A stretch of DNA of 22,867 nt from IMG/VR virus record IMGVR_UViG_3300031951_011464, positions 1 through 22,867 of that record, one strand, 5' to 3'. The stretch is from a virus. The position numbers and the translations under genes are program-made. Positions 5,737 through 17,832 of this stretch are shown here, piece by piece. Position 1 is the stretch's first letter. Each line of letters opens with the position of its first letter. Below the pieces are notes generated by a model. That model saw nothing but the letters and a program-made list of their open reading frames with translations. It was not told where the DNA came from and searched no databases.

Positions 5737-6054
5737 ATGTACAAGATGATGAACGCAGAGGAGCGCGCTCGGAAGAAGGCGCAGGGCGAGCAGATGCAAG
5801 CGGGGTTGACGGCGACGTCGGACCCTGCGGCGGCTCGTGCGGCGGCGGCGAAGCAGCTCGTCGAAGAGGCGGCGGCTCGCGCGTCGGGGCAAGCGCCGGT
5901 CAAGGACCCGGGGCAAGTGCGCCTCGAAGGGATGCAGCGTCGGCGGGTCGGCGGGCGCACCGTGGCTGACGTGCTAGCGTCGCTGACGGGACTCCCCGGT
6001 GGGCCGACCCCGATGGTCCCGCAACCCGGCAAGAAGGCGGCGAGGCCCCTGTGA
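5737..6054 (+). CDS. Hypothetical Ala-rich helical protein, 105 aa
   Basis: ATG at 5737 lies one base after the previous stop, with GGGAG upstream. The first two-thirds is a charged, alanine-rich helix (NAEERARKKAQGEQMQAG, then PAAARAAAAKQLVEEAAARASG), probably extended or coiled coil. It is followed by DPGQVRLEGMQRRRVGGRTVADVLASLTGLP and a basic, Pro-rich tail. It overlaps the portal gene by four bases (GTGA), so the two are likely translated together. No family is recognised. Possible roles are a portal or packaging cofactor or a minor head protein; the sequence does not decide. Confidence 0.6.
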   Translation: MYKMMNAEERARKKAQGEQMQAGLTATSDPAAARAAAAKQLVEEAAARASGQAPVKDPGQVRLEGMQRRRVGGRTVADVLASLTGLPGGPTPMVPQPGKKAARPL

Positions 6055-8261
6055 GTCTACTCCCTGACGCCACCGACGAGGCCATCGTCGATTTCTACCA
6101 GACTCGCGATGAGCAAGAGCTGACGTCGGCGGTGGTGACGCGCGTCGAGCGGCAGAAGCTACTTCAGCAGGGCTGGGTCGGTGACGCCTGGGTCGCGTGG
6201 GCGTATTGGGCGAACCGCCCGTGGTCGCTTTGGAATCGCACGATGGAGCGCCTCGACGCGCTTCCGGGCGAGTATGAGAATCAGATCCGGATCTCGCTGA
6301 ACTACATCCGCAAGGCGGTGAACGCGCGGGTGAGCAAGCTGACCGCGCATCAGCCGGGGTGGCAAGTCGGGCCGGCGACTGCGGACGAGACGGATGCGCA
6401 GAAGGCGCGGGCGTGCGAGTCGCTCCTGACGTACATCTACCACCACGAGAACATGCGGGCGAAGTGCCCCGAGTTTGTGCGGTGGGCCGAGGTCACGGGC
6501 GCGGGCGTGTTCCGCGTGGAGTGGGATCGTTTGGCCGGCGAGCCAGTGCCGGCGCACGACGAAGTGACGGGGGAGATCGTGCTTGGCGCGGACGGTCAGC
6601 CCGTCATGGTGCCGTCAGGGTTCCCAAAGATTACGGCGTGCTCGCCCATGGCGGTGTACTTCGACCCTGCGGCGTCTGATCAGAACCTCGCGGACTGTCG
6701 ATGGGTGGCCGAGGTGTCGTTTGTCTCGGTGGAAGCAGCGCGGGAGCAATGGCCCGACAAGGCGGCGTACATCAAGCCCTCGTCGCCGTCGCGCCCCGAT
6801 CCGCTGACCATGGAGACACTCGGCTACACGCCTTCGATGCAGATGGACGACATCGACCGGGTGGTGATCTACACCTACTACGAGCGCCCGTCGAAGAAGT
6901 ACCCTGAGGGGTTGTTTGTCGCGACGACCGACTCGGTGCTTCTGGAGAAGCTGGAGAAGTTGCCGCTCGGTGGGGAGCTTCCCTACGCCATCATGCGGGT
7001 GAACCCGTACCCCGGCCATCTCTACGGCCAGGGCATGGTCGAAGACCTGAAGCCCATTCAGTCGATGGTGAACCGGCAGGAGAGCAAGCGGCTAGAGCTT
7101 GTGGACCTGCACGCGAACCCGAAATGGCTGGTCGAGCGCGGCTCGGTGTCGCGCAAGCAGTTCACCAATCAGCCGGGCGAGGTCATCGAGTACGACCGTG
7201 GCTCGCGCCGACCTGAACTCATGCAGCCCCCGCCGCTGAGCCCCGAGCATGAGCGGCTAGCGACGCAGGGCATTGAGCACATCGCGTCGCTCTCCGGTGT
7301 AAGCGAGATCACCATGAACGGCGCACCGGCTTCGATGTCGGGGCGCATGGCGCAGTTCCAAGCGGAGATGGAGGCGTCGCAGCTTTCGCTCGACTCCGGG
7401 GAGCTGGAATTGGCGATGTCGCGGGTTGGGATGCTCTGCCTGCGGCTGTGTCACGAGTTCATGCCGCCTGAAATGACCATTCGCATCATCGGGGAGGAGA
7501 ACCGCCTTGAAGCGGTGCAGTTCTACCGAGACGCGATTCGTTCGACGGACGTGCGCATCGAGCCACAGTCGATGCAGGTCAAGCACCCGTCAGTGCAACG
7601 CGAAGCCGTGATGATGGCGTTCGAGCGCGGCATCCTGGGCGATCCGAACGACCCGGAGATCAAGCGGGAAGCGCGGCGCATGATGGAGTTCGGCGGCGAC
7701 AAGATCATCAACGGCGACCGCGTGCCCGAGCGCATGTACCAGGAGGAGGAGAACTACGCGATGAGCCTCGGCCACGAGGCCAAGGTGCAGCCGCAGGAGG
7801 ACCACGCGACGCACATCTCGTCGATCAAGGCGTTCATGTCGTCCGTGGCGTATCGGATGCTGTCGCCCGACATTCAGACGCGCTTCATGCAGCATCTCGC
7901 GATGCACGAGGCGTACAAGATGATGGCGGCGAACGGACAGCCGTGGTGGATGAGCTACCTCCCCGGGGACATGCAAGCGCAGGTCTTTCCGCAGGGCGTC
8001 CCCGCGCCTCCGATGCCCGAGGGCTCCGCGCCCTCCGCGCCGCAGATGCCCGTCGATGCGTTTGGTCTCGACCCCGCAGACGCGGCGGCGATGCAGTCGC
8101 AGGACGCGCAAAGCCTCGCGGCGGCGGCGGCACTGGCGGCGCAAGGCTCCACGCCTCGCACGGTGCAGGAGAACCAGCCGCTTCAGCAAGCCGCGCCGAT
8201 TCGCACCATTGGCGGGCAAACGCCTCCGACAGGTGGCGCGGGCGGGTGGGGCGTCGCGTGA
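6051..8261 (+). CDS. Portal protein, P22-type, 736 aa
   Basis: GTG at 6051 overlaps the upstream stop (GTGA). Twelve copies would form the ring at one capsid vertex through which the terminase packages DNA and to which the tail attaches. The length is close to that of the P22 portal (about 725 aa). Portal-like features are the N-terminal helical part with a conserved basic stretch (ISLNYIRKAVNARVSKLT), the wing region (PSGFPKITACSPMAVYFDP, then WVAEVSFVSVEAA) and the stem/clip region (YGQGMVEDLKPIQSMVNRQ, then LHANPKWLVERGS). The C-terminal 100 residues are Ala/Pro/Gln-rich low complexity and could correspond to the barrel or a disordered tail. Its place between terminase and scaffold is the standard head order. 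Family call is from these features, not from a search. Confidence 0.85.
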   Translation: MSLLPDATDEAIVDFYQTRDEQELTSAVVTRVERQKLLQQGWVGDAWVAWAYWANRPWSLWNRTMERLDALPGEYENQIRISLNYIRKAVNARVSKLTAHQPGWQVGPATADETDAQKARACESLLTYIYHHENMRAKCPEFVRWAEVTGAGVFRVEWDRLAGEPVPAHDEVTGEIVLGADGQPVMVPSGFPKITACSPMAVYFDPAASDQNLADCRWVAEVSFVSVEAAREQWPDKAAYIKPSSPSRPDPLTMETLGYTPSMQMDDIDRVVIYTYYERPSKKYPEGLFVATTDSVLLEKLEKLPLGGELPYAIMRVNPYPGHLYGQGMVEDLKPIQSMVNRQESKRLELVDLHANPKWLVERGSVSRKQFTNQPGEVIEYDRGSRRPELMQPPPLSPEHERLATQGIEHIASLSGVSEITMNGAPASMSGRMAQFQAEMEASQLSLDSGELELAMSRVGMLCLRLCHEFMPPEMTIRIIGEENRLEAVQFYRDAIRSTDVRIEPQSMQVKHPSVQREAVMMAFERGILGDPNDPEIKREARRMMEFGGDKIINGDRVPERMYQEEENYAMSLGHEAKVQPQEDHATHISSIKAFMSSVAYRMLSPDIQTRFMQHLAMHEAYKMMAANGQPWWMSYLPGDMQAQVFPQGVPAPPMPEGSAPSAPQMPVDAFGLDPADAAAMQSQDAQSLAAAAALAAQGSTPRTVQENQPLQQAAPIRTIGGQTPPTGGAGGWGVA

Positions 8262-8504: not shown

Positions 8505-9440
8505 ATGGACGACGAGAACCAATTACCATCAGGAGGCGGCGGGCTGTTTGGCTCGTCTGCCATCGCTGAGTCGATGTCTTTCATGGGCGCTGGCAACGCG
8601 GAGACCGCCGAGGCGCTGACGCCCGTGGACGCGCCGGTTGCGGCGACGTCCGGGACGCCGGCTGAGCCTGCGGCTGAGACGCCGGCAGAGCCCGCTGCGG
8701 AAGCGGCTCCCGAGGCCCCTGTTGAGCCCGAGGTGCTTCCGAAGCGTGGCGGGCCAAGCCCGGTGCTTCGCGAGTACATCAAGGCGCAGGAGGAGCGGGC
8801 TAAGCGCGCCGAGGCGCTGCTCGAAGCGCAGCGTGCGGAGACCGCGAAGCTGCTCGAAGCCGTGCAGGCGCTCACGTCGAACCGTGCGCCGCAAACCGCT
8901 GAAGCGGACGACGAGCCCGAAGAGGAGCCGCTCGACCCGCTGGAGCGCGACCTCAAGGCCATGCGCGCCAAGGTCGAAGCCATGGAGCGCGCGCAAGCCG
9001 AGCGCGAAGCGCAGATGCAGCAGGCTCGCTACGAGCGCACGCTGCAAGCCGCGCGCAACGAGATCGTGTCCGAGGTCGATGCCGTCGTGAAGGAGTTCCC
9101 TGAGCTTGGGGAGTTCCGCAACGAGGTCTACGCCAACGTGGCGCTGAACTCGGAGCAATCGCGCATCGCTGGGAGCAACGTGAAAGAGCTTCCCGTGGCC
9201 GAGATTGCGCGTCAGTTCGCGCGCCGGCTCGGGCTCGTCAAAGCAAAGGCGGCTCCTGCGGCAACGCCCGCTGCGCCCCTCGCGCGTCCCGCTGCGGCGC
9301 AAACCAAACCACCGACGCCGGGCAGTCCAGCGCCGGTTCCTCGACATCCATCGGCAAGCGCATCGGTTCCGAGCGCGCCGAGGGACGTGTCCAAAATGTC
9401 GTTCCAGGAACTCAACGACGCCTGGGTCAGAGGCTCATAG
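8505..9440 (+). CDS. Putative capsid scaffolding protein, 311 aa
   Basis: ATG at 8505 has GAGG upstream. The gene lies between portal and major capsid gene, the usual scaffold position, and the length matches P22 scaffold (about 303 aa). The protein is an acidic, Ala/Pro/Glu-rich N-terminus (residues 30-85), a long charged coiled-coil core (about 85-190: REYIKAQEERAKRAEALLEA, then KAMRAKVEAMERAQAERE), a helical segment (IVSEVDAVVKEFPELGEF), an Ala/Pro-rich disordered linker and a short C-terminal helix KMSFQELNDAWVRGS that could be the coat-binding end. Scaffolds are poorly conserved, so the call rests on position, size and coiled-coil architecture. No protease domain is visible. Confidence 0.7.
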   Translation: MDDENQLPSGGGGLFGSSAIAESMSFMGAGNAETAEALTPVDAPVAATSGTPAEPAAETPAEPAAEAAPEAPVEPEVLPKRGGPSPVLREYIKAQEERAKRAEALLEAQRAETAKLLEAVQALTSNRAPQTAEADDEPEEEPLDPLERDLKAMRAKVEAMERAQAEREAQMQQARYERTLQAARNEIVSEVDAVVKEFPELGEFRNEVYANVALNSEQSRIAGSNVKELPVAEIARQFARRLGLVKAKAAPAATPAAPLARPAAAQTKPPTPGSPAPVPRHPSASASVPSAPRDVSKMSFQELNDAWVRGS

Positions 9441-9449
9441 GAGTAGCTC

Positions 9450-10715
9450 GTGCCGACCACGCTTCCCAATCCCGGCGCTGCCGGAACCCCGTCTTCGCCC
9501 GGGAGTGCGGATGCGCTCCTCAAGGACTTTTACCTTCCCAAGATCGTGTCGCTCCTCAACGAGAAGCACGAGCTTCTGAAGAAGCTGGGCCGCGACCCGA
9601 GCAAGTTCTCGGGCCGTCAGGTCAAGTTCCCGGTGACGACGGGCCGTGAGAACGGCATCGGCGCTCGCTCGGAGAACTCGTCTCTGCCGCGTGCGAGCGT
9701 CGCCCGCACCGTGCAGGCGTCGATCTACTCCAAGACGCTGACCGGGCGCACGCAGTTCACCGGCCAGATGATGGAGAAGTCGAAGTCTGACCGTGGCGCG
9801 TTCGCGCAGGAAGCCAAGCGTCAGATGGAGATGCTGACTGAAGGCCTGCTCGACGACACGAACCGCCAGCTCTACGGCGTGGAAGTCACCGTCAACGACG
9901 CTGACGGCACGGCATTCACCGGCAAGACGGGCCTTTTCGGCTACGTCACCAGCGGTCAAGCCTCGGCCACCCAGACGCTCTCAACCACGGCGAATCTCGT
10001 CAAGGGCATGAGCATCTGCTTCGGCACGACCGCTGAGTTTGGCTCGGGCTCGTGGTCTACGCAGGTCATCGACTCCGTGGACTCCGCGACGCAGATCACG
10101 CTGGAAAACTCGGTCACGACCGCGACGAACGACGGTGTGACGCGCGGCGACGCCGATGGCGTGGCGTTTGACGCCGAGCTGACGGGTCTGGAGTTCATTA
10201 TCAAGTCGAGCGGCACCTTCCAGGGGATTTCGGCCACGACCTACCCGAACTGGAAGTCCACCGTCACCGACGCGTCCTCGGGGTACTACCTCGACGACGA
10301 CCGCATCCAAGCGATGCTCGACACCATCGGTGACAACTGCGGCACCGAGCCCGACATGATCGTGTGCCATCGCACGCAGCGCCGGCTCTACCTGAGCACC
10401 CTCCTCCCGTCGAAGCGATTCGCGGGCCAGGACCTCAAGGGCGGTTTTGCGAACGGTCTCTCGTACCAGGGCGGCGACAAGCCGGTTCCGCTGTTCGTGG
10501 ACAAGCACTGTCCGACCACCACGGCCTACTTCCTCAACACTGGCGACATCACCATGTTCGTCGAGCAGGACTGGCAATGGATGGAGGAGGACGGCGCGAT
10601 CCTGAACCGCGTCGCGGGCAAGTTCAACTACGAAGCCACGATGACGGCCATGAAGGAACTCGGCTGCTTCCGTCGCAACTCGCACGGCAAGTACACGAAC
10701 CTCGCGACCTCGTGA
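9450..10715 (+). CDS. Major capsid protein, HK97-fold type, 421 aa
   Basis: GTG at 9450 is set by AGGAG six bases upstream. The product forms the icosahedral shell. Shell-protein features are an N-terminal arm (residues 20-50, ALLKDFYLPKIVSLLNEKHE), a loop and spine region (RTQFTGQMMEKSK, then AKRQMEMLTEGLLDDTNRQ), an insertion rich in Thr and Ala that looks like a small beta domain (about 155-225), and a conserved-looking C-terminal A-domain (MIVCHRTQRRLYLSTL, VPLFVDKHCPTTTAYFLN, DWQWMEEDGAILNRV, ending in TAMKELGCFRRNSHG). The middle segment GLEFIIKSSGTFQGIS is typical of one large group of phage coat proteins. The first ten residues are Pro/Gly-rich and flexible. Confidence 0.85.
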   Translation: MPTTLPNPGAAGTPSSPGSADALLKDFYLPKIVSLLNEKHELLKKLGRDPSKFSGRQVKFPVTTGRENGIGARSENSSLPRASVARTVQASIYSKTLTGRTQFTGQMMEKSKSDRGAFAQEAKRQMEMLTEGLLDDTNRQLYGVEVTVNDADGTAFTGKTGLFGYVTSGQASATQTLSTTANLVKGMSICFGTTAEFGSGSWSTQVIDSVDSATQITLENSVTTATNDGVTRGDADGVAFDAELTGLEFIIKSSGTFQGISATTYPNWKSTVTDASSGYYLDDDRIQAMLDTIGDNCGTEPDMIVCHRTQRRLYLSTLLPSKRFAGQDLKGGFANGLSYQGGDKPVPLFVDKHCPTTTAYFLNTGDITMFVEQDWQWMEEDGAILNRVAGKFNYEATMTAMKELGCFRRNSHGKYTNLATS

Positions 10716-10742
10716 TCTGAAGGCTGACCAAGGAGGTCTACC

Positions 10743-11345
10743 ATGGGAATCCGACAGAATCACATCGACCGGGCGTGGCAACTCGAAGAGTTCACCCCGG
10801 CTCACTTCACCACGCTTGTTAGCACGACGCTTCGCGCCGGGCCGGAAAGCTCGATTGTGTCGCAGTTCAACAGCCTGGGTATCCCGGGCATCAACCTCGA
10901 CACCAACGGCGACTCGGTTCGGCTGCTCAAGAAGCTGACGAACGTCGATACCACGCAGCGGATCTATTTCCGGGTCAACTGGACGTCCGACTCGACGACC
11001 TCGGCTCACTCGGTGGTGTGGACGATGACCTACAAGATCATCTCCCCCGACCAGGACGTGATCAGCTTCAGCTCGCCAACCGCGATGACGCCCGCGACCG
11101 TGACGGACACGGTAGGCTCAACGACGGCCTACAAGATCCGTCGCACGAACGCGCTGTACATCCCGGCTGACAGCGTGAACCGCACGGATCATGTCGCGTT
11201 GGAGTTCGAGGCGACCACGCTCACCGGGCTCACCAACTGCTACCTGCTCAACGTCGAGATGCTCTACTACCCCCGCCCGGCAATTGGGATCTCTCGTCCC
11301 TCCCCGGCCATGGCGCTTCCGTCCGACTGGACGGTGGCTTCGTAA
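10743..11345 (+). CDS. Capsid-region beta protein A, 200 aa, paralogue of next gene
   Basis: AAGGAGG six bases before ATG 10743 is the strongest ribosome site in the window, consistent with a product needed in high copy. The protein is Thr/Ser-rich and looks all-beta. Residues 43-196 line up with residues 53-201 of the next gene product: shared NSL, L-D/N-TNG, RV-x-WTS-x-S, DT, TAY, RT-x-A, a Leu/Val run and a C-terminal LPS-x-W. Two tandem paralogues right after the coat gene suggest capsid decoration (cement) proteins or vertex components. That is inferred from position and inferred expression; no known family was recognised by eye. Confidence 0.7.
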   Translation: MGIRQNHIDRAWQLEEFTPAHFTTLVSTTLRAGPESSIVSQFNSLGIPGINLDTNGDSVRLLKKLTNVDTTQRIYFRVNWTSDSTTSAHSVVWTMTYKIISPDQDVISFSSPTAMTPATVTDTVGSTTAYKIRRTNALYIPADSVNRTDHVALEFEATTLTGLTNCYLLNVEMLYYPRPAIGISRPSPAMALPSDWTVAS

Positions 11346-11357
11346 GGAGAAGGTGAC

Positions 11358-11972
11358 ATGGCTGAACTGAACTTCCAGCACGCTTGGAAACGGGCGTGGT
11401 TCGGACCCGAAGTGTTTCTTCCAGGTGCGGGCGCAACCGACGCCGCGCCGAACACGGTGACGACGGTCCAACTGAATAGCGGTCACACGACCGGGATTGC
11501 AATTGGCGAGATCAACAGCCTGAAGCTCAACAGCTACAAGCTGAACACCAACGGCAACCTCGTTCGTGCGATCACGCAGATCCCTGACGTCAACACGGCT
11601 GCACCGGTCTTGGCGCGCGTCGTGTGGACCTCGGGGTCCTCAACGGCTGCGGATACCATCGACTGGAAGGTGTCGGTCAAGGTGCAGACGGCAGACGCCG
11701 CGCTCATCGTGTCGTCTCTGACCACCGTCACGCTGTCCGACACGGCTCTCGCGACCGCCTACTGCCTCCAGCGCACGCCGGCAGGCACGTTTGCGGCGGG
11801 CGTCATCGACAACATGGACATCTTCGTTCTGCAGGTTGAGATGCACGCGAAGGCGGTCGGTCTGAGCGAAGACATTTTCTTCCTCGGCGTCGAACTGCTT
11901 TACGTCCCGGTGGTCGTCTCCGATCTCGGGCTCGGTCTCCCGTCGCTTCCGAGCGGCTGGCCGGGGTCCTGA
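11358..11972 (+). CDS. Capsid-region beta protein B, 204 aa, paralogue of previous gene
   Basis: ATG 11358 is preceded by AAGGAGA with a seven-base gap. It is an all-beta, Thr/Val/Ala-rich protein. Landmarks shared with protein A are NSL at 53 (A: 43), LNTNG at 62-66 (A: LDTNG 52-56), RVVWTS at 87-92 (A: RVNWTS 77-82) and a C-terminal LPSGW (A: LPSDW), with a constant ten-residue offset through the first half. The N-terminal 40 residues differ in sequence though both have an aromatic-rich start (HAWKRAWFG here, DRAWQLEEF in A). The pair probably arose by duplication and may form a hetero-oligomer on the shell. The function is inferred. Confidence 0.7.
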   Translation: MAELNFQHAWKRAWFGPEVFLPGAGATDAAPNTVTTVQLNSGHTTGIAIGEINSLKLNSYKLNTNGNLVRAITQIPDVNTAAPVLARVVWTSGSSTAADTIDWKVSVKVQTADAALIVSSLTTVTLSDTALATAYCLQRTPAGTFAAGVIDNMDIFVLQVEMHAKAVGLSEDIFFLGVELLYVPVVVSDLGLGLPSLPSGWPGS

Positions 11973-12526
11973 TGCACGTCCAGACCATGACCGAGAGTCA
12001 GATGCGACGCATCCTGGCTCTCAACTGGAAGAACGAGCACTCCACGCGCCTTCAACGCGCCATTGGCTGCAAGACGCTGGTGGTCGCGTGGCGTTCCGAC
12101 CTCGGTCGGTGGGTGCTCGCAAACGTCGAACGAGTCCGTGTGGGCAAGTCCTTCGGGATGCGCGCCTACGAGGAGTTCGAGGATGTTCCCGTGGTCTGGA
12201 AGGTGTGGCAGGATGACGACGGCTCCTTCCTCGACATCACCGACCCGCAACTAATACCGTACATCCGAAAGTGCGATGGCACGACGGGCGGTGCGGAACG
12301 GATGCTGGCGGCTGTCGAGGCGGGAGACGCCCGACGCGATGCGGAACTCAAGGCGGTAGCTGCGGAGGCGGCTGACGGTCTTGTGGACCACATCAAGTGG
12401 TTCCGTAACCGCGTGGACGAATCGGGCCACATCGCGCACCGCAAGGGCGGTCACGAGGGTGGCAAGATCAGCACGGCGTCTCTCTGGCGCGGCGGGGCGG
12501 TACAGCCCTTGATCGCCCTCGCGTAA
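11972..12526 (+). CDS. Hypothetical protein, 184 aa, last gene of capsid block
   Basis: The ATG shares bases with the previous stop (TGATG) and there is no clear ribosome site, so translation is probably by re-initiation. An N-terminal strand-rich domain (residues 25-90: CKTLVVAWRSDLGRWVLANVERVRV, then VPVVWKVWQDDDGSFLDI) is followed by a helical, charged part (AERMLAAVEAGDARRDAELKA) and a basic Gly-rich tail (HRKGGHEGGKIS). The family is not recognised. Position between the shell proteins and the adaptor fits a minor head or completion protein. Transcription may end or restart in the 44-base gap that follows. Confidence 0.6.
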   Translation: MHVQTMTESQMRRILALNWKNEHSTRLQRAIGCKTLVVAWRSDLGRWVLANVERVRVGKSFGMRAYEEFEDVPVVWKVWQDDDGSFLDITDPQLIPYIRKCDGTTGGAERMLAAVEAGDARRDAELKAVAAEAADGLVDHIKWFRNRVDESGHIAHRKGGHEGGKISTASLWRGGAVQPLIALA

Positions 12527-12570: not shown

Positions 12571-13278
12571 TTGTCCCTGACCTACTCCACCGTTCTCGCA
12601 CTGGCGCAGACGCTACTCGACGACACGAGTACCGCGTCGGGCATCACGACCTCTCAATGGGTCACGCTGTTCAACGCGGCGAACCGGGACGTCTGGAGGA
12701 TGCTCGTCAACGTCAACCCGTCTTACTTCCAGACCTACGGGGACATCACGTTCCCGGCCTCGACTGAGAAGATCACGCTCTCGGGCGCGAGCTACCTCAA
12801 CACGACGCCGTACAAGCTGATTCAGGTCGAGGCGACGGCGATCACGGGCAACGTGACGCCGCAAAACCTCCCGCGAAAGCTCATGCCGGTGACGTTCCAA
12901 GAGCGCCCGCAGTTTCTTTCGGACATGCTGGTGAGCTTGAGTCCAGGCTCGATGGTGCCGGGGCCGTACGTCTACACCTACGACGAGGACTCGACGATGT
13001 ACGTCGCGCCGCTGTCGCAGACGGCGTGTCCGATGCGGATTCACTACGTCCCTCCGCTCGCGGCGGTGACTGGCCAGTCAAACGACGTGGTGCTCGCAGG
13101 GCGGGCGCAGTCCTTCCACGACGCGGTAGCTCACCGGCTTGCGTGGTACGCCTCGGTGAAGCGCGGCGGTACGCCCGGCGTGGCAGGGCAGCTCTGGCTT
13201 GAGAGCGAGAACCTCATCAAGAACTCGGCCCCGACGCGCAACGAGGGTGAGCCCTGGCGCGTGCGTAAGGTGTCCTAA
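12571..13278 (+). CDS. Head-tail adaptor protein, 235 aa
   Basis: TTG at 12571 is chosen because AGGAG lies six bases before it and the product then begins MSLTYSTVLALAQTLLDDT, a typical adaptor N-terminal helix. Next are TTSQWVTLFNAANRDVWRML, a central beta segment with the Pro-rich loop GPYVYTYDEDSTMYVAPLSQTA, and C-terminal helices (AQSFHDAVAHRLAWYASVKRGG, then LWLESENLIK). This helix-beta-helix plan and the acidic D-E-D turn followed by a P/APLSQ strand match the adaptor (gatekeeper) proteins of short-tailed phages, analogous to P22 gp4 or T7 gp11, which dock the tail on the portal. It is a little longer than those. TAATG links it to the next gene. Confidence 0.65.
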   Translation: MSLTYSTVLALAQTLLDDTSTASGITTSQWVTLFNAANRDVWRMLVNVNPSYFQTYGDITFPASTEKITLSGASYLNTTPYKLIQVEATAITGNVTPQNLPRKLMPVTFQERPQFLSDMLVSLSPGSMVPGPYVYTYDEDSTMYVAPLSQTACPMRIHYVPPLAAVTGQSNDVVLAGRAQSFHDAVAHRLAWYASVKRGGTPGVAGQLWLESENLIKNSAPTRNEGEPWRVRKVS

Positions 13279-15206
13279 TGGCAAAGCTCCGCATTACAGG
13301 GCCGTGGCGCGGAATGGACCTCCGCGACAACGGGGCAGCCGAGGGCACCGCCCGTCTCATGCTCAACATGGAGAACAAGGCGGGCGTGCTCAAGCCGCGC
13401 CAGTGCGTGTATCAGGTCTCGACGGCCATCGAGAACAATGCGCAGCTTCACTTCGTTGACCGGCCAGGGCTTCAGCGCGTCATTTTGGCGGTTGGCGTGT
13501 ATGGCACGGGTCAGGTGCGCGTGGACGGGCTCGACGAGTGGGGCAACACGGTGTTTTCCAACGTGCAGCTCACTACCGAAGCAACACCGCCCATCACCAC
13601 GGGGTTCCGGTGCTCCTTCATCGACACGTTCCTGCGACCAATCCCTGGTGTCGTGCCAGGACCGCCGCGCCCCGCGACGCTGATCGTAACGCCCAACGCG
13701 ACGTGGGTGTACGAGCCTTTGGCTGACGCGACGACGGTGCGGATTGCAAGCATCGCGAACGATGCGGTGCAGGCGAACACAAACAATATCAACTACCTAG
13801 CATCATTGCCTCGCGGGCCTATCGCCGCGATGCACAACAACTACGTCTTCTATGCCGGGTTTCAAGACGGTGTGGACGTCATATTTGATTCGCCGCTTGA
13901 GGATGATCAGGCCGACGTGCCGGACTACATTCTGTCGCAGAATCGAGCGGCGTTGCGGCTGTCGCCCGGCTTGCTGTTGCACTCGGACCAGTTTGACCCG
14001 CTTGGCATTGCCGCGCCCAACTTTTTCTTCATTGGTGGCGAAGTCATTACCGGATTGCACTCGACGGGCGAGGTGCTGCTTGTCTTCACGAACAAGAACA
14101 TCTGGGCGCTCACCGGGTACAACATCCAGACGTACTCGCTGCAACTCATCGTGCGCGGGATTGGGTGCGTGTCGCACTGGTCCATCGTGACGGTGCAGGG
14201 CGTGACGTACTTCGCCTCGGACGACGGCATCTACGCCTTCGGCGGCATGGGCGCTCCCGAGACGGTGAAGATCAGCGAGGGGCTGTCGCCGCTCTGGGAC
14301 GGTTGGGACGGGCAGTCCACCTTTGTCCCCGACGCCATGCAGGCGCGGCTTGCGAGCTTCGGGTGGCCGTGGACGCTGAAGAGCGACCTGTTTCATATGA
14401 CGTGCGGGCGCTACAACCGGCGAGCCAATCAAATTTGGTGGAGCTTCGCGAGCACCGGGCCGTACTCACTCAACACGCTCAACATGACGCTCGTGTACGA
14501 CCTCGACACGCGCGGGTTCTCGCTGTTCTTTGCAGACCCCTCGGAGACCGAGGTCGGCTCCGGGCTGTTCGGGTTCATGTCCGACGCGATTGAAGCAGGC
14601 TCGACGTGGTACTGGTCATCGTCAGTCGGCATCCTGTATCGCTTCGACTCGCACGGGTGGGACGGCAAGGAGCAAGAGGAGAACACGCAGCGTGGCGTCC
14701 CTGCATTCTGGCTGTCGCAGCGCATTGCGCCCGATGATGCGGACTGGAAGAAGGTTCTTGACACGCGGGTCAAAGTTCTGAGCCGGGGCCAATGGGACAC
14801 AGCGTACAACGACGATGCGGTCAATCTGCTTGGGAGCGGGAGCGTGCCCAAAGATTTGCCGTACTTCTGCCTGTCGGGTGAGGCCGAGGCGTTCGACCTT
14901 TACACGGATCAGGGGGTCGCTGCGACCTATTCGCAGCGCGGCAGCACGGTCACGGGCTCGCTGAACCTGCTAGCGAACGCCGGGTTTCGGACCATCGGCG
15001 GTGCCGGCGCGACGTCATCGTTCACGATCAACACGTCGAAGTGGGTGACGCGAGACTGGTTTGCGTCGCGGTGCGAAGGTCAGATCGGCGCAAAGTCGTT
15101 TCGGTTCGGACTGGTCGATGACGCCTGGGCCAACACGCGCGGGCCGAAGCTCGCGGTTGCCGCCATTGAGTTCGACATCCTCGAAGAGGGCACGACGCAC
15201 CGATGA
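13278..15206 (+). CDS. Tail nozzle-like beta-propeller protein, 642 aa
   Basis: ATG shares bases with the adaptor stop (TAATG), so the two are coupled. Repeating strand-turn motifs point to a beta-propeller: SLPRGPIAAMHNNYVFYAG, EVITGLHSTGEVLLVFTNKN then IWALTG, GCVSHWSIVTVQGVTYFAS then DDGIYAFGG, and TLVYDLDTRGFSLFF. These resemble the tail needle-hub/nozzle proteins that follow the adaptor in short-tailed phages (P22 gp10, T7 gp12). The product would extend the DNA channel below the adaptor. The C-terminal 150 residues (about 490-642) are a second beta domain with a long loop. It is longer than P22 gp10 and shorter than T7 gp12. It ends with an ATGA overlap to the next gene. The call rests on position and strand pattern. 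Confidence 0.65.
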   Translation: MAKLRITGPWRGMDLRDNGAAEGTARLMLNMENKAGVLKPRQCVYQVSTAIENNAQLHFVDRPGLQRVILAVGVYGTGQVRVDGLDEWGNTVFSNVQLTTEATPPITTGFRCSFIDTFLRPIPGVVPGPPRPATLIVTPNATWVYEPLADATTVRIASIANDAVQANTNNINYLASLPRGPIAAMHNNYVFYAGFQDGVDVIFDSPLEDDQADVPDYILSQNRAALRLSPGLLLHSDQFDPLGIAAPNFFFIGGEVITGLHSTGEVLLVFTNKNIWALTGYNIQTYSLQLIVRGIGCVSHWSIVTVQGVTYFASDDGIYAFGGMGAPETVKISEGLSPLWDGWDGQSTFVPDAMQARLASFGWPWTLKSDLFHMTCGRYNRRANQIWWSFASTGPYSLNTLNMTLVYDLDTRGFSLFFADPSETEVGSGLFGFMSDAIEAGSTWYWSSSVGILYRFDSHGWDGKEQEENTQRGVPAFWLSQRIAPDDADWKKVLDTRVKVLSRGQWDTAYNDDAVNLLGSGSVPKDLPYFCLSGEAEAFDLYTDQGVAATYSQRGSTVTGSLNLLANAGFRTIGGAGATSSFTINTSKWVTRDWFASRCEGQIGAKSFRFGLVDDAWANTRGPKLAVAAIEFDILEEGTTHR

Positions 15207-15865
15207 GCCGCCGTCTCCCTACGCTGAACGGCGCGCCTTCGATGGGGCTTGGCGCGGCCATGGCGGGGCTCAAGTTCGCCCGAGGCGACAAGCTGTTCTC
15301 GCCCGCGCAGGGCTCGCTGACGGCGATGCGAGCTGGTGTTGCAAACCAGGCGACGGAGCAACGGCTCGGGGCGCTCGGGTTCGTCGCAGACCCGTCCATG
15401 TCGTTCCGCGAGATCATGGGGCGCGTCATCGGGACGAAGGGGCCGGGCGCACGGGTGCTGTTCACCGAGGGCACCTATCACTTCAAGGAGATATCGAACG
15501 TCGAGATCGCACGCGACGGCGTGGAATTTATTGCCCTGTCGCCGGGGCGCACGGTGTTCCGGCGTGACACGGATGGCAGCCTTGCGGGCACGCGGGCGAA
15601 CATGCTCACCGTGTCAGGGGCGTACTTCCGCATGGAGGGGATCACGCTGACGGAGCCGGGAAACGCGGACTACCCGAGCGTGTCGCTTACAGGTGGCTAC
15701 GCAGCGGTACTCGGTTGCTACTTCGAAACCGTGTACGGCGCGGTCACAATTTCGTCCGACTACAACCTCGTGACGGACTGCCTTGTTGAAAACAACACAG
15801 CGGCGTCTGCCATCAACATCACGTCAGGGGCGGGCAACGTCGTCACTGACAATCGGATCGTCTGA
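15203..15865 (+). CDS. Short parallel beta-helix tail protein, 220 aa
   Basis: ATG 15203 overlaps the nozzle stop (ATGA). The N-terminal 60 residues are Gly/Ala-rich and probably attach to the particle. From about residue 85 the protein shows the spaced strand-turn pattern of a right-handed parallel beta-helix: GARVLFTEGTYHFKEIS, VEIARDGVEFIALSPG, NMLTVSGAYFRMEGITL, SVSLTGGYAAVLGCYFE, DYNLVTDCLVENN and AINITSGAGNVVTDNRIV at the end. This is the fold of many tailspikes and depolymerases, but the helix is short and I see no obvious catalytic cluster. It could be a structural fibre part or a stub to which another fibre binds. Its last rung resembles the end of the 16788 gene product. Confidence 0.6.
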   Translation: MSRRLPTLNGAPSMGLGAAMAGLKFARGDKLFSPAQGSLTAMRAGVANQATEQRLGALGFVADPSMSFREIMGRVIGTKGPGARVLFTEGTYHFKEISNVEIARDGVEFIALSPGRTVFRRDTDGSLAGTRANMLTVSGAYFRMEGITLTEPGNADYPSVSLTGGYAAVLGCYFETVYGAVTISSDYNLVTDCLVENNTAASAINITSGAGNVVTDNRIV

Positions 15866-15867
15866 CC

Positions 15868-16788
15868 ATGGCCTCCAAGTTCAAGTTGTACAGCACGGTG
15901 AGCACCGCTGAGACCTTTTATCGGATTTACGATCTGGTCGTGAACGTGACGTCGCAGAGCATTTACCGGCTGGTGAACGACACGGGCTCGGCTGTCGCGC
16001 TGAACAACGGCTCCGGTTTCGTCTCGTCGTTTGCTAACGCCGCAGCCGTCGCGGCTGGCTCCTACATGGTAATCGAGCCAGTGACCGCTTTGGGTGGCCG
16101 GCGACATCAGATCCGCGTCAACAACACCGGGACGACGGTGAACTCGGTGCAATTCTCCTCGCGCGGAGGGTGGACCAACGCGGGCGCGGCGTTCGGCGCA
16201 TCGTCGAAGACCGACGCCACGCAGTTCAACGACGGCGCGGCACCGGGTGCGGGCTCGCAGGTGTACGTCGGGATGGGCACGTTCGCCATCGACGGCAGCA
16301 ACACCGGGACCTACTTCTGGGCGAACATTCGAGACAGCGGCTCGGCCAACGCGGACCAGTTCGTCTACTGCGGCAACTACTACCCGTGGTCCATCAGCTA
16401 CGACGTCAACCCGGTGTGCTTTTTGACGCGCGTTCCAACGGTTTCAGGCGCAGCGTTCGACCTCGGGCGCAACTCCGCAGACACGAACAACCTGAACCGC
16501 ACGTCGGTCGAAGTGGCGCAGACGACCTCGTGGACCGCTGCCGGCTACGCGCGCATTGGGTTCTACGACGCCCCGAACACACCCGGCTCAACGTGCATCT
16601 GGCGCGACCTGCAAAGCTACTACCCGCCGCTCCCGGCGTACCTGTGGCTGCGCAACTCGGCGTGTATGGGGCATTTCGGAGACCATCTCCGCATCATCAA
16701 CGACACGCTGAGCGACTACGACACGGACACGGGGGCGACGCGGCTAGTCCTCGGACACCTGTGGATGCACTATGACGAGACGCTTTGA
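15868..16788 (+). CDS. Predicted virion (tail/fibre) protein, 306 aa, unknown family
   Basis: ATG 15868 follows the previous stop by two bases without a clear ribosome site. The protein is Ser/Thr/Asn/Gly-rich and aromatic, all-beta in look: KFKLYSTVSTAETFYRIYDLVVNV, then VNDTGSAVALNNGSGF, SYMVIEPVTALGGRRHQIRVNN, GTYFWANIRDSG and NYYPWSISYDVNP. The first 100 residues have the spacing of a jelly-roll or carbohydrate-binding-like sandwich; the C-terminal half carries AQTTSWTAAGYARIGFYDAP and ends in LGHLWMHYDETL. No catalytic motif is visible. Position among beta-helix and fibre genes makes a host-surface-contacting tail component likely. It is linked to the next gene by TGATG. Confidence 0.5.
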   Translation: MASKFKLYSTVSTAETFYRIYDLVVNVTSQSIYRLVNDTGSAVALNNGSGFVSSFANAAAVAAGSYMVIEPVTALGGRRHQIRVNNTGTTVNSVQFSSRGGWTNAGAAFGASSKTDATQFNDGAAPGAGSQVYVGMGTFAIDGSNTGTYFWANIRDSGSANADQFVYCGNYYPWSISYDVNPVCFLTRVPTVSGAAFDLGRNSADTNNLNRTSVEVAQTTSWTAAGYARIGFYDAPNTPGSTCIWRDLQSYYPPLPAYLWLRNSACMGHFGDHLRIINDTLSDYDTDTGATRLVLGHLWMHYDETL

Positions 16789-17330
16789 TGGCGACGATCA
16801 ACGCGTACTCGCCCTACGACTTCGACTTCGTGCGGTTTATCAGGCCGACGCACGCGCCCGCGTCCATGAGCGAGTACGTCGCGGCGGGTGGCACTGTGCC
16901 TGACACGACTATCACCAGCGCGCAGTCCGTGGGACTCACCCGCGTCCGTCTCACACTCGCCGTGACCGTCCCAAGCGACTCGACGTGGACCACGGCGGGC
17001 AACTACACAATCACCCCGAGCGGCGGCGCGGCGGCGGTCACGGTCTCGTCGGCAGCAGTCGGCCATGACGGCTCGTATATCGACCTGACCACGACCTCGC
17101 ACACGGCCTCTGGCGCGTACTCGGTCGCATGGACCGGGCTGACCGGGGTCGCGGCAGGGTCAGACGCCTACACGCCCGTGGCGCTTGCAACAGGGGCGCG
17201 CATCAACATCGCAAACGGCGCGACTGGAAACGTCGTTGTGGGAAACATGGTGGCGGGTGGTAGTATCACGTTCCGGGCGTCTGACGGCAACGTGGTTGAC
17301 GGCAACATCGGGCACCTGATCGTGACGTGA
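16788..17330 (+). CDS. Tail protein with Ig-like domain and beta-helix end, 180 aa
   Basis: ATG 16788 shares bases with the previous stop; a TTG one codon upstream is a weaker alternative. Residues 1-45 (INAYSPYDFDFVRFIRPT) are unfamiliar. Residues about 45-125 look like an immunoglobulin-like bacterial surface domain: RVRLTLAVTVPSDSTWTTAG, NYTITPSGG, AAVTVSSAAVGHDGSYIDL and GAYSVAWTGLTGVAAGS. The last 45 residues form beta-helix rungs (INIANGATGNVVVGNMVAGG, then ITFRASDGNVVDGNIGHLIV). Similar last rungs end the 15203 product, suggesting both belong to one trimeric assembly. There is no enzyme motif. Confidence 0.55.
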   Translation: MATINAYSPYDFDFVRFIRPTHAPASMSEYVAAGGTVPDTTITSAQSVGLTRVRLTLAVTVPSDSTWTTAGNYTITPSGGAAAVTVSSAAVGHDGSYIDLTTTSHTASGAYSVAWTGLTGVAAGSDAYTPVALATGARINIANGATGNVVVGNMVAGGSITFRASDGNVVDGNIGHLIVT

Positions 17331-17337
17331 GGCAAGC

Positions 17338-17832
17338 ATGGCGACGCTGACCTATCCCTACACCGCTGCGAATGGCGACACGCCCGACGCGACGGACTAC
17401 AACGGGAACTTCACGGCAATCAAGACGCTGCTTGAGACCACGAAGCTCGACACGGCGAACCTGAGCACGCCGTACTCGCTTCTGGCGTTGTCCTTCACGT
17501 CGCCGGCTGCGCTGGTTGGGGCGACCACCTACGTTGCGCGGTACAAGGTGCCGGCGAGCACGACGCTGATCCCGGTGTCGGTGAGCTTCAGCTTCACGAC
17601 GGCCACGGCAGGCGTGCCGACCCCGACGTTCCAGTTCACTGACGATGGCGCGAACGTGCTCACGTCGGCGCTCACGGCGTCGCTCCCCGCGACCACCTAC
17701 GAAAGCACCGGGTTTTCGATCACGTCCATTGCGGCGGCGTCTGACCTCGTGTTCACGATGACCGGAACGGCGGCGACGACGGCGACGGACCTGTTCGCGG
17801 TGGTCACGTTCAAAGTCCTCATCCGGGCCTGA
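17338..17832 (+). CDS. Small tail-fibre-like protein, 164 aa
   Basis: ATG 17338 has GAGG at a five-base spacing overlapping the previous stop. The N-terminus YPYTAANGDTPDATDYNGNF followed by TAIKTLLE resembles the head-binding start of phage fibres and appendages, where an N-x-N/G-F-x-x-I helix packs on the tail. The rest is a Thr/Ala-rich beta domain (SLLALSFTSPAALVGATTYV, RYKVPASTTLIPVSVSFSF, TFQFTDDGANVLTSALTASL, DLFAVVTFKVLIRA). There is no coiled coil. It is probably an accessory fibre or a knob-like domain. The homologous family is not identified. Confidence 0.5.
   Translation: MATLTYPYTAANGDTPDATDYNGNFTAIKTLLETTKLDTANLSTPYSLLALSFTSPAALVGATTYVARYKVPASTTLIPVSVSFSFTTATAGVPTPTFQFTDDGANVLTSALTASLPATTYESTGFSITSIAAASDLVFTMTGTAATTATDLFAVVTFKVLIRA

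Follow-up and report, generated by a model that had tools for sequence, protein, structure and literature searches.

The record under study is a viral contig of 22,867 bases (hereafter the window, i.e., the whole stretch of DNA analysed), in which two adjacent genes on one strand, A and B, follow the gene for the major capsid (coat) protein (Table 1). A lies directly 3' of the coat gene and is separated from B by 12 nt. A large terminase, a P22-type portal and a scaffold-like gene are found upstream of the coat gene, and the region downstream of A and B contains a gene for a 184 amino acid (aa) protein, an SU10-type adaptor, a protein resembling a hub or nozzle, and genes for putative appendages. 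This set of head and tail genes (viz. the P22-type portal, SU10-type adaptor and hub/nozzle-like protein) indicates a short-tailed phage, and the phage of the window, which is uncultured, is probably of this type as read from its gene content. An 8.5-kb contig from another sample (L020; IMGVR 3300042691_029819) carries a portal that matches the window's at 100% identity, hence the same phage has probably been met twice.

Table 1. Coordinates of the features discussed, in the window unless another contig is named.
Feature	Coordinates	Strand	Characteristics
Portal protein, search anchor	6051..8261	+	Pfam P22_portal, E 4.4e-32
Major capsid (coat) protein, 421 aa	9450..10715	+	PHROG 14242 major head protein, E 1e-48
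Shine-Dalgarno of A, AAGGAGGT	10730..10737	+	8 nt, 5 nt spacing
A, 200-aa predicted jelly-roll protein, faster-evolving copy	10743..11345	+	Paralogue of B; AlphaFold model all-beta
C-terminal tail of A, ALPSDWTVAS	11313..11342	+	9/10 residues same in L001 A
Shine-Dalgarno of B, TAAGGAG	11343..11349	+	7 nt, 8 nt spacing; overlaps stop of A
B, 204-aa predicted jelly-roll protein, conserved copy	11358..11972	+	AlphaFold model; matches L001 B
C-terminal tail of B, PSLPSGWPGS	11940..11969	+	9/10 residues same in L001 B
184-aa gene, always 3' of the A/B family	11972..12526	+	Counterparts in relatives
SU10-type head-tail adaptor	12571..13278	+	Pfam SU10_adaptor, E 1.9e-7, above curated cut-off
Tail hub or nozzle-like protein, search anchor	13278..15206	+	Weak PHROG virion-protein matches
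Virion-like pair	L025:9454-9993 + 9996-10517
Virion-like pair	L027:13193-13744 + 13747-14268
Virion-like pair	L028:13988-14536 + 14539-15060

The first-pass annotation had described A and B as tandem paralogues of 200 and 204 aa. Open reading frames of exactly these lengths were found at the positions listed in Table 1, and their products match one another over nearly their full length in BLASTP (30% identity, 50% positives, 77 bits, E 2e-22). The local alignment score of A with B is 199, whereas 1000 shuffles gave a mean of 34 and reached 61 at most, and none of the other products of the window scored above 46 against either protein. The motifs that were cited for the pair (viz. NSL, L-D/N-TNG, RV-x-WTS, DT, TAY, and LPS-x-W) are all present, but the constant ten-residue offset between them is not, the offset being 10 residues at NSL, L-D/N-TNG and RV-x-WTS, 6 at DT, and 5 at TAY and LPS-x-W. 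Judged by their sequences, A and B are intact tandem paralogues.

Searches of Pfam, NCBIfam, PHROGs and PDB sequences returned no match for A or B and, as far as the profile libraries searched are concerned, the A/B family is a new one. Direct searches with A, B, or a four-row profile retrieved a single contig, L001 (IMGVR 3300037042_002378), which has both copies and the gene order of the window; nothing was retrieved by direct searches from genome contigs or annotated phage records, and matches of A to RNase P (E ~0.02) were set aside as chance. Further relatives were reached by using conserved neighbours (viz. portal and tail hub) as anchors. The hub led to L018 (full-length match, 39% identity) and the portal led to L022–L028 (portal identity 35–38%, and 35–37% for L023–L028). 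Of these, L024 stops within the coat gene, and L025 is nearly identical to L026. L023 and L025–L028 are referred to here as the marine group, a label of convenience and not a checked habitat. The coat gene, when used as the anchor, yielded L001 and otherwise only distant contigs from the rumen that lack the family.

The position directly after the coat gene, pointed out earlier for the window, is shared, across ~35–39% portal identity, by all 8 of the family-bearing contigs (viz. the window, L001, L018, L023, L025, L026, L027, and L028), and every contig that spans the site has the coat gene, then a family member, then a gene for 166–184 aa. Two copies are present only in the window and L001, and each of the other contigs proved to have exactly one when its full record (7–41 kb) was searched with the profile. 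The 184-aa protein of the window is 59% identical to its counterpart in L001 and 36% to that in L018, and a 166-aa counterpart is found at this site in L025, L027, and L028, with a cut one in L023; it has no convincing library match (Pfam DUF2554 scored below its cut-off). Another virion-like gene (window 17338–17832) displays the reverse pattern of copy number, occurring once in the window and once in L018 (41% mutual identity) and present as a tandem paralogous pair with 36–38% identity in L025, L027, and L028 (Table 1).

Profile searches found no family member in phages with more distant coat proteins, viz. Arthrobacter phage Jasmine, Microbacterium phage Shocker, Cellulosimicrobium phage DS1, the Manatee Spring phages ctEqG8 and ctLwi270, and contigs L012 and L013. 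The family is accessory, in that a number of phages with related coat proteins lack it, and since fragments may be among these records the absences are provisional. Absence from related-coat phages (viz. Jasmine, Shocker, DS1, and L012) is what would be expected of an accessory layer.

The ribosome binding site of A had been singled out as the strongest of the window, and by a simple measure of length it is so: AAGGAGGT is the longest anti-Shine-Dalgarno match among the 17 starts, and TAAGGAG of B (7 nt) is the second longest, a rank it shares with another gene; within the head region, the sites of A and B are the strongest. The coat gene of the window has AGGAG (5 nt), and the family's ribosome sites (those of A, B, and the single copy of L018 among them) are longer than that of the respective coat gene in the window, L001, and L018, which suggests that many copies of these proteins are made. 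No promoter or terminator-like site that would account for A/B expression was found, and A and B are not set apart by their codon usage. In L018, the interval between the coat gene and the only family member contains a perfect GC-rich hairpin (CCGGGCGGG-ATTGA-CCCGCCCGG; approximately L018:6796-6818), possibly a site of transcript processing or attenuation.

In a tree based on the core alignment, A branches with A of L001 and B with B of L001 (98% support for B). Independent duplications in the window and L001 were rejected (AU p 0.0005 and 0.0002), hence the doubled state was inherited and, by these topology comparisons, has a single origin in the two phages. The single copy of L018 is closest to B (41% identity vs. 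28% to A), and a placement with A is disfavoured (p 0.02). Both a duplication before the split of L018, followed by loss of A in L018, and a duplication after it are allowed (AU p 0.75 and 0.30, respectively). The two copies have diverged unequally: A is 37–40% identical to its L001 orthologue, depending on the alignment, and B is 58–62% identical to L001 B in global or core alignments (68% in the best tblastn segment), where the portal and adaptor are each 70%, the coat protein 66%, and the scaffold-like gene 44% identical. By these identities B is the conserved copy, held nearly as strongly as the shell, and A is among the fastest genes. The scaffold-like gene (8505–9440) is also among the fastest of the head module, with 25% identity to L018.

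The description of A and B as beta-rich agrees with their AlphaFold models, which are all-beta with strands in matching order (pLDDT 71 and pTM 0.74 for A; pLDDT 72 and pTM 0.76 for B) and which were built from four-row alignments; model confidence is moderate only. A check for a common fold found that the two predicted folds do not differ and that their jelly-roll matches coincide. In a library of viral structures, A0A1B1IV77 ranked first and A0A6J5RYK1 second for both proteins; F8TV94 and F5B3P6 were also among the top matches of both, making four in common, and several tail-fibre or collagen-like proteins are among the viral matches. F8TV94 may be a protein of an EBPR podovirus, and the EBPR podovirus records (podovirus 1 included) contain no family member. 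The best solved matches for both models are jelly rolls of the carbohydrate-binding module types CBM6, CBM35, and CBM36 (Z 9–12, rmsd 2.3–3.5 for the closest modules), with sequence identity of only 4–16%, and no Pfam or NCBIfam profile of a CBM family matches any of nine family members. The jelly-roll domain of Cry proteins also appears among the matches of both models; it reflects the common fold and has no bearing on toxicity. No solved decoration protein was found by sequence in PDB or by structure among the matches listed. A and B are predicted, with moderate confidence, to share one jelly-roll beta-sandwich fold.

Within this predicted fold, the family varies in its loops and is most conserved at its ends. 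B of L001 contains an insertion of ~150 residues behind the N-terminal segment and L018 contains one of ~75–80 residues ahead of the penultimate strand; these are two different loops, and the insertions mark spots that tolerate added domains. In the marine group, identity is 88% over the N-terminal 12 columns and 73% over the C-terminal 16 columns compared with 32% in the body, with a p value of 0.03 for both ends by circular shift; A and B show a contrast in the same direction that is not significant. The C-terminal tails of A and B differ from each other, and each is kept at 9 of 10 positions in L001 although A as a whole is only ~40% identical, which for A is a statistically weak signal. 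The single copy of L018 ends in LPSGW.

We interpret A and B as duplicated jelly-roll capsid-decoration proteins that are anchored by their ends and have split sites or roles between them, a reading to which we assign a probability of roughly 0.58. A decoration protein would fit the combination of probable strong translation, accessory distribution, adjacency to the coat gene, conserved termini, and a body that accommodates insertions. According to this model, a single-copy gene for a virion-surface jelly-roll protein 3' of the coat gene would have been duplicated and the pair then inherited. The strong ribosome sites would give large amounts of protein, which would attach to the exterior of an HK97-type shell during or after its expansion, by means of the conserved N-terminus and the C-terminal tail, with the body and the insertion-prone loops pointing outward. 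After the duplication, B would have retained the ancestral role while A diverged, and the two would have come to reside at different, non-equivalent positions of the shell, or one of them may have gained a second function, e.g., adhesion. It is the location in the virion, the binding to the capsid, the high copy number, the end anchoring, and the division of sites that we infer here. A narrower version, in which the two paralogues of a new jelly-roll family sit at different non-equivalent positions of an HK97-type shell (e.g., penton-proximal vs. hexon-hexon), is put forward tentatively.

A related pair of proteins on the shell, as was proposed in the first-pass annotation, is plausible and is partly supported by the paralogy, the shared predicted fold and the fixed place. 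It has a precedent in the Pectobacterium podophage PhiM1, and this precedent tempers the accompanying statement that such a pair would be uncommon in short-tailed phages (PMC11440229). The decoration proteins of PhiM1, alpha-claw (gp44) and alpha-paw (gp43), are encoded by separate genes, share a capsid-binding motif (34.55% identity), and are found at distinct quasi-2-fold sites according to how close these lie to the pentamer, and one of them has an added arm domain (PMC11440229). Both phages thus have two related, separate genes (34.55% identity in the motif of PhiM1 and 30% between A and B); however, the PhiM1 proteins are helix-turn-helix proteins whose binding to the capsid has been demonstrated, whereas A and B are predicted jelly rolls whose binding we infer. 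The helix-turn-helix dimerisation motif of alpha-claw was not found in the models of A and B, which are almost free of helix, and as beta-sandwiches A and B are not homologues of the PhiM1 proteins and are at most analogous to them.

Bbp16 of the podophage BPP-1 is a jelly-roll cement protein with a C-terminal extension that binds the shell mainly through its N- and C-termini plus one loop (PMC3863775). It resembles the moderate-confidence models of A and B in being a jelly-roll beta-sandwich, but it is one protein of 140 aa and its deletion abolished infectious particles (PMC3863775); no PDB-chain sequence match links it to A or B, and it is not among the fold matches listed. The cement protein gp1 of the Ralstonia podophage GP4 is also a beta-sandwich, present in a number equal to the coat protein (PMC9698820), but it is a single-copy, 157-aa protein of Ig-like fold that forms trimers at quasi-3-fold axes. 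Two decoration proteins on one shell are also known from Sf14 (viz. gp33 and gp20) (PMC11821841); they differ from A and B in having unrelated folds (beta-tulip and Hoc-like Ig), in not being paralogues, and in belonging to a phage with a contractile tail (PMC11821841).

The matches to carbohydrate-binding modules, the closest of the solved folds, and to viral fibre and collagen-like proteins bear on a different reading, in which A and B are receptor- or sugar-binding appendages of the tail or neck whose genes lie between coat and adaptor only incidentally. The duplication would then widen or alter binding to surfaces, and A, one of the fastest genes of the module, would follow the surface of the host; in Arthrobacter phage Jasmine, whose coat protein is related, the coat gene is immediately followed by one that is annotated as a tail spike. 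Roles of a fibre or adhesin-like kind are possible because the fold of A and B is widespread in such proteins, but likeness of fold proves no function. Neither a shaft nor a trimerisation segment was seen in A and B, which are only ~200 aa long, and other candidates for appendage genes are found downstream (a beta-helix ORF at 15203–15865, and 15868–17832). The ribosome sites of A and B surpass that of the coat gene, which suggests production in many copies; we therefore consider an appendage role rather unlikely. The beta-helix-like ORF of the window (220 aa) is the counterpart of a 374-aa ORF of L018 (10923–12044), and as it is shorter and is closely followed by 15868–16788, the gene may be split or rearranged.

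Adjacent genes that both have strong ribosome sites and are retained together in two phages with ~70% portal identity could also encode obligate heteromers, which would form a mixed layer in which neither protein functions alone. The relatives, however, manage with one protein, which implies that homomers were sufficient; the two proteins A and B have evolved at unequal rates (~40% vs. ~60% identity to L001), and the related pair of PhiM1 forms homodimers (PMC11440229), which makes obligate heteromers improbable. That one copy, presumably A, which evolves faster than B and the coat protein, is a decaying or redundant duplicate without a distinct role is highly unlikely, as A is open, has a strong ribosome site, and is present in two divergent phages, and between the window and L001 its second codon positions differ least (0.36 vs. 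0.48 and 0.61), as under purifying selection, which indicates that A is still under selection. An internal or assembly-only role (viz. chaperone, scaffold helper, or head-completion factor), suggested by the position within the head assembly block, is just as hard to reconcile with a beta-sandwich with insertion-tolerant loops and with the absence of the family from phages with related coat proteins.

Read as decoration proteins, A and B are a jelly-roll variation on the known theme of paired decoration and introduce no new principle. What is new is an undescribed family whose synteny is fixed, together with one inherited duplication and relatives with one copy that are available for comparison. 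If this interpretation is correct, the single-copy relatives would represent a natural before-state and the domains inserted in the loops would be natural display fusions and, as the relatives have one copy and one lineage has two, the family would provide a before-and-after test of how the work of an accessory capsid protein comes to be divided among non-equivalent lattice sites.
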